The position numbers and the translations under genes are program-made. The notes beneath the pieces are model-generated. The model was given only the letters and a program-made list of their open reading frames with translations, was not told where the DNA came from and did no database searches. 25,787 nucleotides of DNA from a virus, in the IMG/VR virus record IMGVR_UViG_3300042546_000298, positions 1 to 25,787 of that record; one strand, given 5' to 3'. Shown piece after piece: positions 1,118 to 23,550 of the stretch; position 1 is the first letter of the stretch; each line of letters starts with the position of its first letter.

Positions 1118-1450
1118 TTACCTCGTTACAGAAGGCAATATTGTGGCAATTCCCTCAATAACTCTTGATTTTACACTTGTAGGACTTGTAATTAACAAAT
1201 CATACACATATCTTCCGGGAGCTAAGTTAGCAGTATTTGCTGAGGTGATTGACATTGTGATTTGACCTGCAGCTGCATCAGTAACCGCAACTGTAAATTC
1301 CGTTGCAGTCGTTGAGTAATACGATTTTCTCAACTGTGCGGCCGCAGTATAATTGGTCAAATTGGTGGGAGAACCGTTCGAATCGTTTACCGTAACGGTC
1401 GTAGAATAATTAGCACCCTGTTCAATTGTGAGTTCAACAAAACCAGCCAC
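1118..1450 (-). CDS. BppU-like N-terminal domain protein (GTG start)
   Basis: 110 residues beginning VELTIEQGANYSTTVTVNDS and continuing LTNYTAAAQLRKSYYSTTAT, with AGQITMSITSANTANLAPGR, YVYDLLI and the end VIEGIATILPSVTR. This is the immunoglobulin-like domain found at the N-terminus of Siphovirus BppU baseplate proteins and as a free protein in many T4-like cyanophages. In BppU it anchors receptor-binding proteins. The start is GTG at 1448-1450, placed by a perfect AAGGAG 5 bases upstream; no in-frame ATG lies nearby. That Shine-Dalgarno sequence falls inside an inverted repeat (1453-1498). Unlike its neighbours it is thus set up for controlled translation. The next gene starts 3 bases after its stop. 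Confidence 0.8.
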   Translation of the reverse strand: MAGFVELTIEQGANYSTTVTVNDSNGSPTNLTNYTAAAQLRKSYYSTTATEFTVAVTDAAAGQITMSITSANTANLAPGRYVYDLLITSPTSVKSRVIEGIATILPSVTR

Positions 1451-1452
1451 AA

Positions 1453-1498
1453 TAACTCCTTATTAGTTTTATCGTCTATTTAGTTAAAACAGGAGTTA
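1453..1498 (-). promoter_or_regulatory. Inverted repeat sequestering the Shine-Dalgarno of the GTG-start gene
   Basis: On the transcript strand TAACTCCT (1498-1491) can pair with AGGAGTTA (1460-1453), 8 of 8 bases. Immediately inside, GTTTTA (1490-1485) pairs with TAAAAC (1471-1466), 6 of 6. The loop is 13 bases and there is one 5-base bulge. The right arm contains the AGGAG of the gene starting at 1450. No U-run follows, so it does not look like a terminator. Pairing is read from the sequence; folding energy was not computed. Confidence 0.6.
1477..1483 (-). promoter_or_regulatory. Late-promoter-like CTAAATA in the hairpin loop
   Basis: Reads AACTAAATAGACG on the minus strand, 27 bases before the GTG start. 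It resembles the T4 late -10 element TATAAATA, which needs no -35 box. A transcript from it would begin near 1471, past the 5' arm of the inverted repeat. Confidence 0.45.
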
Positions 1499-1523
1499 CT
1501 GCGGTAAGTTTAGAATTGATTTT

Positions 1524-2141
1524 TTATAGATGAAGTGCTGTGAGAGATTCTTCTTCACCAAAATAACCTTTGGCAAAGACATTAAATGCGAGACTACAAC
1601 GAGTATTGTCACCTTCTTTGGCTTCAACATTGTGTGTCAAAGAGGACGGGAAAAGAACTAAGTCTCCTGTTTTAACTTGAAAAAACCAGCTTTGAGAGTT
1701 GAACCAGTTCCAGTCTTTGGCAGGAAAACTAATTTGCTTGTATTTGATTGGATTATGAAAGTAGATTTTATCTTTTTCTAAATCGGCATTAATATAAAGA
1801 ACACCAGAAATAATGCTATTTGGGTGTTCATGGGTATGATGATATTGGCCAGGTTGAGTGTAATTAAGCCAAGATTGTGTGATATAAAATTCAACAGGAT
1901 TTTTAGGACTAATTACCTTGTCAATGTAAACTTGAATCCCCTCAGAGATAAAATCTAAAAATCCTTTTGCTTCGGGTGCGTTGAGAACATATCGGTCATT
2001 TGATGTTGTGTTACCCATATTGTTATGAGTATTGTCTGAATGGTAATTTACAAAGTCTAGTTCTTTTTCAGTCCATTCACGACCGATATTTGATTTGATA
2101 ACGGGTTGAGGAAAAATACCTACCGATTCAAATTGTGCCAT
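1524..2141 (-). CDS. 2-oxoglutarate/Fe(II)-dependent oxygenase
   Basis: 205 residues, matching the 2OG-Fe(II) oxygenase superfamily of the PF13759 type (single double-stranded beta-helix domain). The core is ITQSWLNYTQPGQYHHTHEH at 87-106, then PNSIISGVLYI at 107-117, and DLVLFPSSLTHNVEAKEGDN at 160-179 followed by TRCSLAFNVF. H104 or H106 would begin the metal triad, H170 is the distal His, and R181, 11 residues later, is placed to bind the 2OG carboxylate. All key positions are intact, so it is probably active. Substrate is unknown. It sits among fibre genes, not metabolic ones, behind its own CTAAATA motif and GGAGT ribosome site. Hydroxylation of a neighbouring virion protein is an attractive inference; a host target is the alternative. 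Confidence 0.88.
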   Translation of the reverse strand: MAQFESVGIFPQPVIKSNIGREWTEKELDFVNYHSDNTHNNMGNTTSNDRYVLNAPEAKGFLDFISEGIQVYIDKVISPKNPVEFYITQSWLNYTQPGQYHHTHEHPNSIISGVLYINADLEKDKIYFHNPIKYKQISFPAKDWNWFNSQSWFFQVKTGDLVLFPSSLTHNVEAKEGDNTRCSLAFNVFAKGYFGEEESLTALHL

Positions 2142-2174: not shown

Positions 2175-2181
2175 TATTTAG
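2175..2181 (-). promoter_or_regulatory. Late-promoter-like CTAAATA before the oxygenase
   Basis: AACTAAATATTT on the minus strand, in the 45-base gap between glycine-rich gene C and the oxygenase, 34 bases before its ATG, followed by GGAGT as ribosome site. Same core as at 1477 and 5013. Confidence 0.45.
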
Positions 2182-2186
2182 TTGCG

Positions 2187-3149
2187 TTAATTTAGAGAAA
2201 ATATTGCTGTATTAGAAGTAAATGTTCCGTCACCAGTAAATGTATGGATTGTATTTGCACCAGAAGTTGTAATTGTTCCTCCAGTAGCACCTTGAGAACC
2301 TGTATATCGAATGATTACAATACCAGAACCTCCGTTTCCACCAATGACGTTTGTTGTGGATCCACCTCCACCACCGCCGCCTCCGCCAGTATTTGTTGTT
2401 CCATTACTTCCATTACCTGCTGGATTTGCATTACCTCCGCTTACGCCTGGAGTTCCTGGGCCACCGGTTCCAGATACTGATCCACCAAAACCGCCGCCGC
2501 CGCCGCCACCGCCTGCATATGTTACTGATGAACCTGAATATGGCGAAGCAGTTCCTGCACCACCATTAGCACTTGGAGCACTATTACCACCAGCAACACC
2601 TGTTCCACCGGCGCCACCACCACCACCACCTCCAGCGGGGTTACCCCCGCTAACATAATTAATTCCCGTTCCTCCATCATTTCCTTGTCCTGCAGTTGCT
2701 ACACCGCCTGCGCCTCCACCTGAAGCATATGAACCTCCTCCTCCAGAACCTCCATCACCTCCGGCTTGAGTACCTCTTCCTGGATTAGTTGCTAAATCTC
2801 CTCCTCTACCACCACCATTTGAAGTTATTGTTGCGGGAGAAAAAGCCACAGAAGAAGCTGAACCTACTACACTTGGAGTAGTAGTAACATAAATGCCACC
2901 GTTTCCTCCACCTCCAACTGTGACAGAAACACCTGAACCTTGAGTTACGGATTGTCCAGTGCCAGTTCTAAAACCTCCAGCGCCACCGCCGCCGCCAAGG
3001 TAAGAACCGCCGCCTCCACCGCCAGCAACTATTAAATAATCTACTGAAGTTGGCCCGGCGGCGCTAACAGATAATCCAACAGGAAATTTAAATCCTGTGG
3101 GTCTTATTGTATTATTTTCTATATTAAGATTTAAAAATTTTAAACTCAT
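2187..3149 (-). CDS. glycine-rich adhesin-like protein C
   Basis: 320 residues. The anchor is IRPTGFKFPVGL (15-26), then SVDYLIVAGGGGGG (35-48), SPYSGSSVTYAGGGGGGGG (202-220) and GGSGIVIIRYTGSQGATGG (273-291), ending GDGTFTSNTAIFSLN. Loops between glycine runs (TNPGRGTQAGGDG, TGINYVSGGNPAGG, NSAPSANGGAG) are unlike A and B. The last 123 bases of shared sequence match protein A's gene more closely than B's, so exchange between copies is likely. A role as the receptor-contacting tip, by analogy to glycine-rich phage adhesins, is inferred. It ends the second cassette; the oxygenase gene follows after 45 bases with a CTAAATA motif. Confidence 0.85.
   Translation of the reverse strand: MSLKFLNLNIENNTIRPTGFKFPVGLSVSAAGPTSVDYLIVAGGGGGGSYLGGGGGAGGFRTGTGQSVTQGSGVSVTVGGGGNGGIYVTTTPSVVGSASSVAFSPATITSNGGGRGGDLATNPGRGTQAGGDGGSGGGGSYASGGGAGGVATAGQGNDGGTGINYVSGGNPAGGGGGGGAGGTGVAGGNSAPSANGGAGTASPYSGSSVTYAGGGGGGGGFGGSVSGTGGPGTPGVSGGNANPAGNGSNGTTNTGGGGGGGGGSTTNVIGGNGGSGIVIIRYTGSQGATGGTITTSGANTIHTFTGDGTFTSNTAIFSLN
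2211..2333. repeat. Conserved 3' block of glycine-rich gene C
   Basis: 123 bases nearly matching 5982-6104, with long identical runs such as the stretch coding for IVIIRYTGSQGATGG. Encodes the shared C-terminal domain. Confidence 0.8.
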
Positions 3150-5012: not shown

Positions 5013-5019
5013 TATTTAG
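5013..5019 (-). promoter_or_regulatory. Late-promoter-like CTAAATA before the 124-residue gene
   Basis: CAACTAAATAGTATA on the minus strand, 38 bases before the ATG at 4975. The TAA stop of glycine-rich gene B is part of the motif. Same core as at 1477 and 2175. Confidence 0.45.
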
Positions 5020-5948
5020 TTGATTAAGTAAGAGGATAAATTGGATCTAAATGTTCCATCACCAGTAAATGTATGGATTGTATTTGCACCAGAAGTTGTA
5101 ACTGTTCCGCCAGTAGCACCTTGGCTACCAGCATAACGAATGATTACAATACCAGAACCACCCGCTCCGCCGGTACCGTTTGTTGATGGAGCACTCGGAC
5201 CTGATCCTGCACCACCGCCTCCACCGCCAGTATTTGTTCCGCCACTTGCGGCTGTGCCTGAGGTAGCTCCGTTACCTCCAGGAGAACCTCCTGAACCGGC
5301 AGATTTTCCTATAGCAGATGAACCTCCACCTCCACCTCCACCAGCATATGTTACTGGTGAACCTGAATAAGGTGACGCTGTACCTGATCCGCCAGTACCT
5401 CCAGATGATGGTTGTGCATTACCTCCTACACCTCCTGCACCGCCGCCGCCTCCAGCAGTACCATTTGCACCACCAAGACCACCATTAGTTCCACCAGCGT
5501 TTCCTTGTCCTGGTGTTCCTGGTGATGATGTATTTTCAGACGCTTTTGCGCCGCCACCCGAACCTCCAGAACCAGAAGGATTTGGATCGGTACCTCCTCT
5601 GCCGCCACCTAAAGATGAAACGATAACTGCGGGACCTGTATTGACAAATGACGAAGAACCATTTGTTGATGGTGTAGTTCTAGCAACGCCGCCGGGCCCA
5701 CCTGCACCAATAGTTATACTATAAGATGAACCAGTAGTAATAGACAGACTTGTTCCTGTTACAAAACCTCCGGCACCACCCCCACCACCGGTGCTTCCTT
5801 GACCAGTTCCAATTTCACCTCCGCCGCCTCCGCCACCAGCAACAATAAGATAATCTACTGAACTGGGACCCGTATTATTATCACCACCAACAAAAGTTAA
5901 TCCTGTTGGATAAACATAACCTTTTGGTCTTACACGAAAAACTGCCAT
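5016..5948 (-). CDS. glycine-rich adhesin-like protein B
   Basis: 310 residues, same design as protein A. The anchor is VRPKGYVYPTGL (6-17), then VDYLIVAGGGGGGG (31-44), SPYSGSPVTYAGGGGGGG (192-209) and GGSGIVIIRYAGSQGATGG (263-281), ending GDGTFRSNLSSYLIN. The loops (ASENTSSPGTPGQGN, AIGKSAGSGGSPGGN, SGPSAPSTNGTGG) differ from A and C. It follows A by 9 bases, with AAAGGT as ribosome site, giving a tandem pair. Its stop codon TAA lies inside a CTAAATA late-promoter-like string, so this gene closes one predicted transcription unit while the next begins. Role as for A, by inference: alternative or hetero-oligomeric receptor-binding tip. Confidence 0.85.
   Translation of the reverse strand: MAVFRVRPKGYVYPTGLTFVGGDNNTGPSSVDYLIVAGGGGGGGEIGTGQGSTGGGGGAGGFVTGTSLSITTGSSYSITIGAGGPGGVARTTPSTNGSSSFVNTGPAVIVSSLGGGRGGTDPNPSGSGGSGGGAKASENTSSPGTPGQGNAGGTNGGLGGANGTAGGGGGAGGVGGNAQPSSGGTGGSGTASPYSGSPVTYAGGGGGGGSSAIGKSAGSGGSPGGNGATSGTAASGGTNTGGGGGGAGSGPSAPSTNGTGGAGGSGIVIIRYAGSQGATGGTVTTSGANTIHTFTGDGTFRSNLSSYLIN
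5048..5159. repeat. Conserved 3' block of glycine-rich gene B
   Basis: The same block as at 2211-2333. Its first 60 bases differ from copy C by only a few bases; the rest is more diverged. Confidence 0.75.
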
Positions 5949-8001: not shown

Positions 8002-8016
8002 TATTTATGTATTTAT
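8002..8016 (-). promoter_or_regulatory. Tandem ATAAATA late-promoter-like motifs
   Basis: The minus strand reads GATAAATACATAAATAG, two ATAAATA copies 8 bases apart (8010-8016 and 8002-8008), in the 31-base gap after the beta-repeat fibre gene. The second copy is 21 bases upstream of the ATG at 7981, leaving room for a short leader with AGAGGATA. The first overlaps the preceding TAA stop. Confidence 0.45.
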
Positions 8017-18862: not shown

Positions 18863-21487
18863 CTATGTTTCTACTGAAAGAATCAAATCATTTTCAGCAA
18901 TAATCTCGTCTAGTGTTACTTCTGTTGCAACCGCATCGTAATCAACATTCAATACCACCAATTCTTCATTATTTGCAGTTATTGTAAAGGCACTATTTAC
19001 AGTCAGTAATGTATCGCTAATGATTGAATTCACCATGCGAATCTCTGAGTTTACGGCAATCCATGTGTTTGCGCCAATAAAATCAAGATTGGCTGCCTTA
19101 GTAAATTTAGTACCTGTTCCAACAACAAAAATGGTGCTGTTAACATTAACAGTACCAGAAAGTGTTCGTATATTTTTAGGCACCGTTAATGTGCTCATTG
19201 TCACATTATTGGCATCTAATTCATTTAGTTTATTTAGCTCTGCATAGGATTTAAATCCAGCAGGATGTAAGAGTTCTTTAAAGATTTTTTTGTATCGTGC
19301 AAATTCAATTTCAGACGATAACAAGTAAGAATAGTTAATGTAATAGTCACGACCTTGTAATTTTCTGTCAGAAGATGAGAGAATTGAGTCTGAAGAAGTC
19401 CATCTTCCGGCCAATTCTTGCAATGTTGGACTGAGTGTTGCATTTGCTTGAGCCGTTCCATCTCCAATTGAAGTCAAAACAATTTGAGGTGTGGTACGAA
19501 TACCTTTACCTGGATCAAGAATTGTGATTTCTTGGATTTCACCAGCACGACCAGTACCACGGGGAAATAGATTTTCTCCATTACCCATAATTGTCGTAAC
19601 GGCTATGTTCGCACTTATTCCAAGTGTAGAACTTACAGTAATTGTTGGAAGTTTGTCGTTAGTGTATCCTTGACCACCTATCAAATATCTTCCCAAATGT
19701 CTAACTGGTCTATTTGTTAGAATTGAACCGAAGCTTGTATTTACATTAAGTGAAGTATTTGAAGCAATTGATACCACAGTTCTTGTATTAGAACCAATCA
19801 TAATTTTATCGCCAACAATTAGTTCTGTTTCAAACAATGTTCCATAACCTTGAACCATTACATTACTTGCAGATGTTACACTTGCGTTTCCAGTGATTTT
19901 TGCAGGAACAAATTTTACTTCTGTAATTGTTCCTAATGCAGAAACATTTGTAACCTCGGCCGCAGCACCAAGTCCAAAACTCATTGGTTTGTTGGTAAAA
20001 ACAAGTTCATCACCAACTGCGTAATCTATGCCTCCGTCAGTAATTATTAGTTTACCTAAAGAACCAAAAGTATCTATTTTTACGATTGTGTTGGTGGTTG
20101 TATTTGCAATTGGAACAATGTCAACAATCGCTGGGTCTGCATTTAGTGTTGGTGTTGTTGTTACTGCTAATTCAGAAATAAGAACTCGAACATTACTAAT
20201 TTCACCAATAGTAGAATATGAAATGTTTGATAATGCTTGAGAAATAACAGTATTTACATTTGCAACTGTACCGCCAGATAATCCAAAATTTAAATTTAAG
20301 ATTACATTGTTGGCGGGGTCAATATCTGAAATTACATCTGAAAAAATAGTATAACTATTTGGTGTATTAGTACCTGTTGTATTAATTGCACCTACGGCAA
20401 AAAATAATTCGGCTTCAGGAACACCTACTGCACGAACATTGGCCGCAACTTGAAATCCTGCACCACCATCACGAATTATTACTTGATTAATTTTACCACT
20501 AAATGTTTTAGAGATAAACGCTTTTGGTTCTCTCTCAAAAGTAGGAACAATAATACTAACTGGATCACCAACATTATAGTTTGCACCACCATCAAGAACA
20601 GTAATTGTTAATAATGAAGAAAATGCTCTTGCACGAAGATGTATTAATGTATCGTCATTTGCGACAATATCAAATAAAATTGTTTCACCAATTGTAAAAT
20701 CACTAACAACAGTTTTTGAATTTACATAAAATGCAGTAATTTGTTCATTGTTTATAGTTTCAATCTCTACTTCTTCAATTAATGCAGTTGCACCAGAAAT
20801 TAAACCAGTTATTTTTCTATTTTTAAATATTTCTATATTGATGTTACGATAAAATACTTCAATCTCTGAATTGTTTGCAGGTGCAGTATAAAAATAAAGT
20901 TTGTTTATTTCTTTACGAACAAAATAATTAGATGCTGCTATTAAAGAACCATTCACATAAACTGTAATGGTTGTATCTAATGCCGAGTTAAAAGGAACAA
21001 GATTGAATTCTTTTTTAGTTCCATTTCCAGTATAGAAACTTGAAATGTCTTGAGTTACCTTAATAACCTCATCTCTTTTCCATTTACCATCAGATGCTCT
21101 TAGAACATCATTTTTAGGATACTTAACTTCAAGTTCTTGTCCAAATAACATTCTGAACAATAACTTAAACGAGTTCTCAGAACCTTTTGCTAAGTAAAGA
21201 GGTAAAACATTTTTAATTAAAAACGCTTTATCAACCTCAACATCTTTAGATACTAATGAGGCATATGTTGCAAAAAACTGTTCTTCAAAATCATCAATTG
21301 AATCGTCAACATCAGATAGATTTCGAAGGTCTTTGGCTCTTTGAGTTAAATCATTGAGTTGAGTACCTTGTTTAGTTTCAAGATATTCGTAATATGCTTC
21401 TAAAAAAGAAATGAATAACGGATACTCTTCCCGAATAAATTCAGGAACTTGGCGATTAACAAGTAAAGAAGTTTTTAAATCAGACAT
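18863..21487 (-). CDS. large baseplate wedge protein in the gp7 position
   Basis: This protein has 874 residues. The N-terminal helical region (VPEFIREEYPLFISFLEAYY at 14-33; KNVLPLYLAKGSENSFKLLF near 92-111) is widespread at this position in T4-like marine phages. The middle holds several GGxxY/F beta modules (GGANYNVGD at 300, GGAGFQV at 341, GGIDYAVGD at 485, GGQGYTND at 604). Two similar modules of the type G-x-V-x-V-(x)n-G-x-G-T-x-F lie at about 533-587 and 776-845. A conserved helical motif, SSEIEFARYKKIFKELLHPA, lies at 724-743. By gene order it should be the wedge core component, equivalent to T4 gp7 (1032 residues), but I see no direct similarity to gp7, so no symbol is given. It has no Shine-Dalgarno sequence; the start overlaps the gp6 stop. 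Confidence 0.8.
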   Translation of the reverse strand: MSDLKTSLLVNRQVPEFIREEYPLFISFLEAYYEYLETKQGTQLNDLTQRAKDLRNLSDVDDSIDDFEEQFFATYASLVSKDVEVDKAFLIKNVLPLYLAKGSENSFKLLFRMLFGQELEVKYPKNDVLRASDGKWKRDEVIKVTQDISSFYTGNGTKKEFNLVPFNSALDTTITVYVNGSLIAASNYFVRKEINKLYFYTAPANNSEIEVFYRNINIEIFKNRKITGLISGATALIEEVEIETINNEQITAFYVNSKTVVSDFTIGETILFDIVANDDTLIHLRARAFSSLLTITVLDGGANYNVGDPVSIIVPTFEREPKAFISKTFSGKINQVIIRDGGAGFQVAANVRAVGVPEAELFFAVGAINTTGTNTPNSYTIFSDVISDIDPANNVILNLNFGLSGGTVANVNTVISQALSNISYSTIGEISNVRVLISELAVTTTPTLNADPAIVDIVPIANTTTNTIVKIDTFGSLGKLIITDGGIDYAVGDELVFTNKPMSFGLGAAAEVTNVSALGTITEVKFVPAKITGNASVTSASNVMVQGYGTLFETELIVGDKIMIGSNTRTVVSIASNTSLNVNTSFGSILTNRPVRHLGRYLIGGQGYTNDKLPTITVSSTLGISANIAVTTIMGNGENLFPRGTGRAGEIQEITILDPGKGIRTTPQIVLTSIGDGTAQANATLSPTLQELAGRWTSSDSILSSSDRKLQGRDYYINYSYLLSSEIEFARYKKIFKELLHPAGFKSYAELNKLNELDANNVTMSTLTVPKNIRTLSGTVNVNSTIFVVGTGTKFTKAANLDFIGANTWIAVNSEIRMVNSIISDTLLTVNSAFTITANNEELVVLNVDYDAVATEVTLDEIIAENDLILSVET

Positions 21488-23550
21488 TAGACACTAACAA
21501 GTTCGGTTACAATAGCAGAAGGGTCTGCACTATCAATTGTAATAATAGTATTTTTTGCAGATGATAAAATACCTTTTTCTGATTCTAAAGAAATACGAAT
21601 AAAACCATCACTTGGTTTTACAGATAAAATGCGAATATCAGTTAAAGTAATAATACCATTTTGATAATCAATTGTTCCTGCTTTTTCACGAATAATTTGT
21701 TTCTGTGCAAAATTATCATAATAAACAGTTCTTAAATCACCAAATCTGGAATCTAAAACCGCAATAGCAGTAGCACCATATCCATCTCCATCACCGCCAG
21801 AAATAGTAACTAATGCAGATGTGTAATCAATACCACGATTAACAACCGTAATCTTTTGAACACGACCATTTACAATTGTTGCTGTAGCAGTAGCACCAGT
21901 TCCATCACCTGTAATTGTTACAGTTGGTGCAACAGTATAATTGAATCCTGGATTTGTCACATTAATTTCGGTGATACCAGTATATGAGTTTTGCACTTCT
22001 TCTAATTGTACCGTTCTACGAACACCTAACGAATCGAATACATCAAATTCAGAGGATGCAAGTCGATTGGATGTTGTACCACGGTGCAATTCGGCATTAA
22101 ATTCAATTTGATATGTTTTTGAAACATTAAGTTCCGGAACAAATCTTTTTTGTAATCTTAGTATAGTTTCCGAACCACGAATTGCATTTAAATCTACACC
22201 ATCAACAGAATCTTGTAGTTTTGAAAGAACAAAAGTGGCATCAAACTTGTTTAAATTTGTATTGTTATAAGTTAAAACTGCATTGCGAATTGAAGTTTTA
22301 ATTGCTTCGGCACTTTGAGTTGTTTTGTTTTTATCATATTCCACATAGTTGTCGATTAAAAGATACAAGAATTGTGGATCAATAATTTCCGCACCAACAG
22401 AAACAATTGCTTTTGGTGAAATAATATCATCAACAATTCTTTGTTTTTCTGTTTCTGAGATATAGTAATTTTGTTTTGGTTTTAATGACACAAATACTTT
22501 ACCATAAACAGGAGGTATCGCATCTTCGCCACCCCAAACAGACAATGAATCTACCGATGGGTAGTTTTTCTTGATGTATGATTCATAATCTTTAAATGTA
22601 ACCAAACGATTCTGTGTGGTAAATTGTGCAGGTGCACCAAATTTAATTTCATCAACACTTTCTCTTAATGAACCACCAGAGGCGGCAGAGATGGGAGAAA
22701 TTACATAATTGTTGATACCTTCATTTAAAGAATCTACCAATGCGGATGTCGCAACAAAGTTATTGGCTTTATCTGCAGCAGTTCCATTTGTAACCAAGTA
22801 TGTTACAGAAACAACCGCACCATCGGGTAATTTTTTACCAACTACATCATTACCAAAATAAATTTGGAATTTACCACCTTTGTTTTCTTGCACATAAAAA
22901 ACTTCGGATGATGAAGTCACATCCAAAACATCGGTAACTTTATTGTAAACAGTTAATTGTGTATTGCCTGCGGCAGGAATTGAAGTTATTTTAATTGTGG
23001 TTGTGTCAATATTTGTATCTGGTAAATTGAATACTTGTTTTGGATTTGATGCTTGGTCATAGTTGAAAACATAAGTGACTAACTGACCTTCGTAAATATC
23101 AAGGTTCTCAAAATAATATTGATTGTTCGCTTTTAATACAGTAATTTCATCCAAGACAACAAAGTTATATGATGTGTTGTCAATTTGGTTTGACAAAAAT
23201 GCAAACCCAGAGGGAATTGTTAAACTACCTGAATTACTTGTTGCGGACTGTGCAGTAAAATTAATTGTTGCAATTGGTGCTCTTTGAGAATATGGAACAT
23301 ATCCTAAAGTTTTAGCATGTGAAACTACCGAATCACGAAGCAATGCACTATCTAAAAAAGACTCATTCGCAACCATGTTTAGATAGTATGCGTTATAATG
23401 AGTATTGTAGGCTAAAAGGTCAAGTAAAATACTTAAACCAGAACCTTCAAAATCATAGTCTGTGAATTCAGATTGTTGATTTAAAAAGTTCTTTAAATTT
23501 TGCTTGATTGTATCAAAATCAAGTTCGGTAACTCTTAAACGGTCTGCCAT
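21487..23550 (-). CDS. gp6: gp6-like baseplate wedge protein (baseplate J type)
   Basis: A 687-residue protein against 660 in T4 gp6. The N-terminus is diagnostic: LDFDTIKQNLKNFL (10-23), the FEGSGLSILLDLLAYNTHYN segment at about 34-53, and residues 61-90 with ANESFLDSALLRDSVVSHAK then TLGYVPYSQR. The middle (300-350) matches the conserved QNRLVTFKDYESYIKKNYPS stretch. gp6 forms the inner iris dimers that join wedges into the hexagonal baseplate. Residues about 525-600 (bases 21751-21978) are a beta-rich insert with two copies of a G-x-x-Y-T motif (NPGFNYTVAPTVTITGDG and NRGIDYTSALVTISGGDG), also found in three neighbouring proteins but not known from T4 gp6. The stop overlaps the next start as TAATG, so the two are probably translationally coupled. 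Confidence 0.95.
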   Translation of the reverse strand: MADRLRVTELDFDTIKQNLKNFLNQQSEFTDYDFEGSGLSILLDLLAYNTHYNAYYLNMVANESFLDSALLRDSVVSHAKTLGYVPYSQRAPIATINFTAQSATSNSGSLTIPSGFAFLSNQIDNTSYNFVVLDEITVLKANNQYYFENLDIYEGQLVTYVFNYDQASNPKQVFNLPDTNIDTTTIKITSIPAAGNTQLTVYNKVTDVLDVTSSSEVFYVQENKGGKFQIYFGNDVVGKKLPDGAVVSVTYLVTNGTAADKANNFVATSALVDSLNEGINNYVISPISAASGGSLRESVDEIKFGAPAQFTTQNRLVTFKDYESYIKKNYPSVDSLSVWGGEDAIPPVYGKVFVSLKPKQNYYISETEKQRIVDDIISPKAIVSVGAEIIDPQFLYLLIDNYVEYDKNKTTQSAEAIKTSIRNAVLTYNNTNLNKFDATFVLSKLQDSVDGVDLNAIRGSETILRLQKRFVPELNVSKTYQIEFNAELHRGTTSNRLASSEFDVFDSLGVRRTVQLEEVQNSYTGITEINVTNPGFNYTVAPTVTITGDGTGATATATIVNGRVQKITVVNRGIDYTSALVTISGGDGDGYGATAIAVLDSRFGDLRTVYYDNFAQKQIIREKAGTIDYQNGIITLTDIRILSVKPSDGFIRISLESEKGILSSAKNTIITIDSADPSAIVTELVSV

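Follow-up and report, generated by a model that had tools for sequence, protein, structure and literature searches.

In bacteriophage T4, the leaders of genes e, soc and 49 hide the Shine-Dalgarno (SD) sequence in read-through RNA, while the late RNA starts without the 5' arm of the structure (PMC3014915). For regulation of the gene e type, the early read-through RNA and a repression of about 100-fold have been measured (PMC3014915). A late promoter that lies in, or overlaps, a hairpin over the ribosome site has also been described for T4 I-TevI, I-TevII, I-TevIII and segB and for mobE of phage Aeh1 (PMC2988022). Late promoters of the form NATAAATA are known from work on cyanophages (PMC2984593), and gp55-type late machinery has been reported for the phage Melnitz (PMC9004378). 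In the literature that we searched, the scope of which left most subscription journals outside, no report of portal or fibre-adaptor genes with hairpins that hide the SD was found.

The locus analysed here resembles T4 e, soc and 49 in that the SD sequence is hidden in RNA derived from upstream and a late promoter would remove the 5' arm. It differs in that the T4 cases were measured, whereas ours is known from sequence and folding alone, and in the type of gene concerned, a fibre adaptor instead of lysozyme, capsid decoration protein and endonuclease VII. The layout is nearly the same as that of the I-TevI, I-TevII, I-TevIII, segB and mobE leaders, but these belong to mobile endonucleases in early or middle units, whereas the gene studied here encodes a virion structural protein in a late region. 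The mechanism is already known from T4; what appears to be new is its use at fibre-adaptor and portal genes, an apparently selected set.

The fibre-adaptor gene and its leader

The window, i.e., the complete stretch of 25,787 nucleotides that was analysed (IMGVR_UViG_3300042546_000298, positions 1-25,787; its leader is termed W in comparisons), is part of a marine T4-like phage. All main genes are on the minus strand, a T4-type baseplate wedge gene is present, and the neighbourhood of the fibre genes resembles that of myophages of Pelagibacter and Methylophilales (HTVC008M, Mosig and Melnitz). Two glycine-rich fibre-like proteins, both belonging to phrog_2295, are encoded about 2 kb apart (Table 1).

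The gene behind the hairpin encodes a 110-aa protein that a preliminary description, made from the sequence, had called BppU-like. While no Pfam family, neither LtfC nor BppU_N, scored above cut-off for the protein itself, it matched phrog_3304 ('L-shaped tail fiber protein assembly') at 1.9e-27, and among 49 homologs PF23926 (LtfC) was found in 24 and PF10651 (BppU_N) in four. The label is backed by the predicted fold: with an AlphaFold model (pLDDT 94) as query, Foldseek returned T5 p132 and the L-shaped-fibre collar protein of DT57C as best matches, followed by baseplate chains of 80alpha and TP901-1, with E values of 3e-8 to 3e-7 and query-normalised TM-scores of 0.71-0.75 for the comparison with the collar protein and BppU. 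A profile search matched 7qg9 and 8hqz. By profile and fold match the protein belongs to the LtfC/BppU_N fibre-adaptor fold, and it is most likely a tail-fibre adaptor. It has its predicted fold in common with T5 p132, the DT57C collar protein and BppU of TP901-1; unlike these, it is a single domain of 110 aa in a T4-like myovirus, for which we infer the adaptor role. The genes located 5' of the adaptor gene vary between loci and are often fibre-like.

In the window, the gene upstream encodes a 2OG-Fe(II) oxygenase and is the probable source of read-through RNA; no terminator was found between the CTAAATA motif preceding it and the adaptor gene. Its stop codon lies about 20 nt from the base of the hairpin. 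Most other gene junctions nearby overlap or almost touch, in contrast to this wide gap, and the hairpin should therefore not be melted by ribosomes that reach the end of the oxygenase gene. In the Pelagibacter phage Mosig (L081:8326-19774), genes of metabolism (aminotransferase, peroxiredoxin, dioxygenases, methylase) form a block immediately 5' of the homologous fibre gene, a setting in which insulation of the fibre gene would matter.

On the minus strand, the gap between the two genes reads CCGCAGTAACTCCT-GTTTTA-ACTAAATAGACGA-TAAAAC-TAATA-AGGAGTTATT-GTGG. Direct reading agrees with the preliminary description in the eight and six exact pairs, the loop of 13 bases and the position of AGGAG within the right outer arm; the GTG at 1450 is also inside the stem. 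The interval 1447-1498 assigned to the hairpin was slightly short, since G-U pairs extend the outer stem to 14 pairs (1491-1504 with 1447-1460). The inner stem has six pairs, and the predicted late start coincides exactly with the first base of its right arm.

Table 1. Features of the window and arms of SD-hiding hairpins in related leaders
Feature	Position	Strand	Basis or remark
Adaptor gene, 110-aa LtfC/BppU_N-like beta-sandwich	1118..1450	-	phrog_3304, Pfam of homologs, AlphaFold, Foldseek
Right outer arm AGGAGTTATTGTGG	1447..1460	-	fold, opening energy
GTG start codon	1448..1450	-	in right outer arm
SD sequence AGGAG	1456..1460	-	in right outer arm
Right inner arm TAAAAC	1466..1471	-	sequence, fold
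Predicted late transcription start	1471	-	from T4 spacing (last base of motif = -6)
Late promoter motif CTAAATA	1477..1483	-	in loop 1472-1484; position conserved in relatives
Left inner arm GTTTTA	1485..1490	-	sequence, fold
Left outer arm CCGCAGTAACTCCT (anti-SD arm)	1491..1504	-	sequence, fold, stem scan; in read-through RNA only
2OG-Fe(II) oxygenase gene	1524..2141	-	Pfam PF13759, 1.3e-23; ends 73 nt before GTG
CTAAATA before oxygenase gene	2175..2181	-	without SD-hiding hairpin
Glycine-rich fibre-like protein	2187..3149		phrog_2295
Glycine-rich fibre-like protein	5016..5948		phrog_2295
T4-type baseplate wedge gene	21487..23550	-	
Arms in L002/L003: CCCCTTAT/ATAAGGGG			inner stems differ between the two
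Arms in L170, L172: AACCCTTATAAAT/ATTTATAAGGGTT			promoter itself part of arm
Arms in L013: GAATCCCTCTT/AAGAGGGGATTC			
Arms in L097: AACACAGTTTCCT/AGGAGACTGTGTT			

Predicted folding and accessibility of the SD sequence

When the folds of the full and the late-start RNA were compared, the SD sequence was predicted to be closed in the former and more open in the latter, as had been proposed. RNA from 1520 to 1430 folds at -28.7 kcal/mol (shuffle mean -12.3, z -5.7, reached by 0 of 200 shuffles), and RNA truncated to begin at 1472 folds at -5.2 (z -0.6). Accessibility was expressed as ensemble opening energy, which superseded a duplex-only measure, and the late RNA was modelled as starting at 1471. 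With 25 nt of coding sequence, opening the SD costs 12.7 kcal/mol in the read-through RNA and 0.8 in the late RNA (p 0.01); with 50 nt the values are 12.1 and 4.2, and at 20-25 C they are 14-15 and 5.8-6.4. The leader has two traits of the T4 gene e/I-TevI type: SD and start codon are paired in the computed fold of the upstream-extended RNA, and loss of the 5' arm lowers the opening cost from 12.1-12.7 to 0.8-4.2 kcal/mol. Folding and the independent recurrence in relatives support the switch geometry outlined in the preliminary description, with the qualification that in the longer late RNA the SD stays partly structured (about 4 kcal/mol with 50 nt of coding sequence), i.e., it is strongly but not completely opened.

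The same test, applied to T4, gave 11.4 versus 0.3 kcal/mol (p 0.01) for I-TevII, which is like the window. Genes e, soc and 49 were not flagged by the shuffle measure, their arms lying partly in the unshuffled part or being weak; known cases are missed, and the measure is therefore conservative. T4 gene 20 was considered as a precedent for a portal hairpin and discarded, as the T4 portal leader is without one (p 0.83).

Length of the stem alone is poor evidence, because shuffled strands contain about 1.5 stems of at least 14 pairs (four were seen in the window strand); this argument was dropped, and position-specific tests count instead. When the 47-nt left segment was shuffled, 0 of 500 versions paired as strongly with the start region, and 0 of 100 shuffled left flanks reached the opening cost of the window. 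CTAAATA occurs six times in the window, with 5.6 expected. Its number is not enriched and was rejected as evidence for a promoter; the motif owes its credibility to its conserved position in relatives. The observation that the other three late-type motifs before gene starts have no such arrangement fits both the shuffled-flank test, which gave p 0.89 at 2175 and 0.08-0.09 at 8002/8010 (5013 lay outside this test), and the folds at 2175, 5013 and 8002/8010, which are no more stable than shuffles. The adaptor gene is therefore singled out within the window. Rfam covariance models yielded no matches in the window at gathering score.

Recurrence and loss of the hairpin in relatives

To collect relatives, viral contigs were scanned three times with the adaptor family and once with the portal of Melnitz; together with annotated phage regions this gave 313 loci (2.9 Mb) with 218 homologs. 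The motif [A/C]TAAATA is present at -48 to -24 in 104 of 140 distinct homologous leaders, compared with 3.2 in shuffles and seven in a control interval farther upstream. It is chiefly this conservation of position that speaks for a late promoter before the adaptor gene, the activity of which we infer from sequence. Among adaptor leaders with motif and SD, the latter is hidden in 24 of 94 at p<=0.05 and in 13 of 94 at p<=0.02. The arms that hide it are unrelated in sequence between relatives (Table 1), and further hairpins with arm sequences of their own occur in L013/L014, L140/L164/L165/L167 and L184. The fibre and portal leaders of Melnitz EXVC044M (L082) are like that of the window in carrying TATAAATA or CTAAATA between SD-hiding arms; they differ from it in the sequences of the arms, and the structure at the fibre gene is weaker, with mismatches.

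In a census of SD hiding at all 364 gene starts with a late motif in the collected loci, hairpins at p<=0.04 were found for 17 of 88 adaptor-family and 12 of 56 portal leaders, but for only two of 151 leaders in four other late families (tail fibre 'MPFIGQQPLTG' 1/76, gp22-like 0/34, neck 0/22, gp23 1/19), these cluster names resting on T4-like annotation of members and on gene order and not being separately proven. Rare genes contributed one of 35. The difference persists after thinning of similar leaders (adaptor 8/55 and portal 9/49 versus 2/121, Fisher 6e-5) and when 50 nt of coding sequence are included (16/88 and 15/56 versus 2/151). The excess pairing spans -16 to +2, that is from the SD to the start codon, with the loop below expectation; in the tail-fibre and gp22-like families, pairing of the SD is itself below expectation. 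In the two hairpin classes (adaptor and portal), opening the SD of read-through RNA costs 8.8 and 7.5 kcal/mol on average, compared with 1.9 and 1.0 for late RNA. Against a switch stands the fact that most adaptor-family leaders (63/88) have no significant hairpin.

At the portal gene (gp20) of Melnitz and of about one fifth of marine relatives, too, a hairpin hides the SD, and the late motif is part of its arms or lies between them (L082:36350-36420, L267, L255, L253, L248, L241, L287, L239). Which base stands second in the late motif depends on the gene family: CTAAATA is found in 35/56 portal, 33/76 tail-fibre and 11/88 adaptor-family leaders and in none of the gp22-like (0/34) and gp23 (0/19) leaders, perhaps reflecting weak versus strong late promoters.

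Within the clade of the window, the hairpin occurs without a terminator in W, L002 and L003, whereas L001, L160, L161 and L162 have no hairpin and all four have an intrinsic terminator (4/4 versus 0/3; Fisher p = 0.03, by hand), GACCCTGC-TTCG-GCAGGGT-TTTTT or a near variant, about 43-46 nt 5' of the motif. In L001 the protein is 100% identical and so is the segment from motif to start, but the left arm and hairpin are absent. Within a short span of evolution, either device can therefore take the place of the other. Loss of the pairing in a relative that retains the gene had been named beforehand as evidence against the switch; L001 is such a relative, but because a strong intrinsic terminator stands in the hairpin's place, the loss reads as replacement and not as refutation. 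The alternation, as read from these sequences, suggests insulation from upstream transcription. It is a statement about this clade (three versus four loci); across the family, exclusivity of hairpin and terminator was rejected, with terminators in 2/25 leaders with and 9/63 without hairpin (not significant), and some Melnitz-like leaders (L098, L102, L126) have both. Terminators just 5' of the late motif occur in 11/88 adaptor-family, 3/76 tail-fibre, 0/56 portal and 0/34 gp22-like leaders. The terminator ACCCTGC-TTCG-GCAGGGT-TTTTT is near-identical in L001 (25-52), L160, L161 and L162 and keeps its distance from the motif behind different upstream genes.

Compensatory changes, which had also been suggested as a check, gave weak evidence. 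In 23 Melnitz-clade leaders a structure of 15 pairs is formed in 91.6% of cells, and two-sided changes affect two pairs (seven cells), a score reached by one of 500 shuffles but equalled by a control slid by -2; RNAalifold found no double changes in these leaders. With so few double changes, covariation was not used as proof. A MAFFT alignment of the W, L002 and L003 leaders misaligned the arms and was left unused. Taken together, the pairing is enriched in two of six families with differing sequences, yet it is lost in L001 and shows little covariation within a clade. A stronger argument than covariation is that the pairing recurs with different sequences.

A probable translational insulator and its alternatives

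We consider it probable that the hairpin insulates translation in the manner of T4 gene e and I-TevI. RNA coming from the 2OG-oxygenase gene or beyond would carry the left arm, fold the hairpin and hide SD and GTG, and the adaptor gene would be left untranslated on it. A late sigma factor would start RNA at about 1471, without the left arm, and the better exposed SD would permit translation, so that most expression of the adaptor gene would come from the late promoter of its own. That the read-through RNA would be early, an element of the original proposal, is only one possibility: the genes upstream appear structural or are preceded by late motifs, and sigma-70-like sites in the window do not exceed chance level. 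Late read-through from the oxygenase gene, starting at the motif at 2175, is no less likely to be what the hairpin acts on. With sigma-70-like sites no more frequent than by chance and a late-type motif as the closest promoter candidate upstream, insulation from any upstream transcript is favoured.

More tentatively, the hairpins that alternate with terminators in marine T4-like phages might insulate the translation of two low-copy virion proteins, portal and fibre adaptor, whose genes lie downstream of abundantly expressed late genes, and so set their stoichiometry. In Melnitz the portal gene comes after that of the tail tube, and both portal and adaptor are probably needed in few copies; a role in stoichiometry is therefore conceivable, as a speculation. 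On this reading, which is possible but less likely than not, the hairpins would block translation of late read-through mRNA instead of imposing an early-to-late delay as at T4 gene e.

Alternatively, the hairpin could act on RNA metabolism, either protecting the 3' end of the oxygenase mRNA or providing an RNase site that splits the cistrons, for which a strong stem about 20 nt past the oxygenase stop would be plausible. We regard this as unlikely: family-wide the extra pairing sits on SD and start codon, and the arms flank a late motif whose distance is conserved, neither of which a protective or processing stem needs, and the four other late families show no excess of hairpins. Slightly less likely still is that the pairing is a by-product of chance. 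The leaders are AT-rich, long stems arise in shuffled strands, the hairpin is dispensable, as L001 shows, and most homologs are without it, but the position-specific tests (0/500 and 0/100) and the recurrence with different sequences, in two gene families only, speak against it. That the hairpin itself terminates or attenuates upstream RNA is very improbable; true intrinsic terminators do occur at the same junction in L001, L160, L161, L162, L096 and L126, but the window's stem is followed by TTATTGTGG, TTGGTT-like coding sequence, and not by the T run that follows the G+C stem of an intrinsic terminator, and it was absent from the terminator scan. Least credible of all is an operator bound by the gene product or a RegA-like repressor, for although leader structures of T4 genes 32 and 43 act in this way (PMC3014915), arms and loops differ completely between clades save for the late motif, unlike a conserved recognition site.

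The combination of hairpin and late promoter, best known from T4 for lysozyme and homing endonucleases, appears here selectively at the fibre-adaptor and portal genes of marine T4-like phages, both cultured and uncultured. If the hairpin is a translational insulator, a prediction that can be tested in a cultured phage, Melnitz on OM43, phages may insulate particular structural genes within long late units, by RNA hairpin or by terminator.
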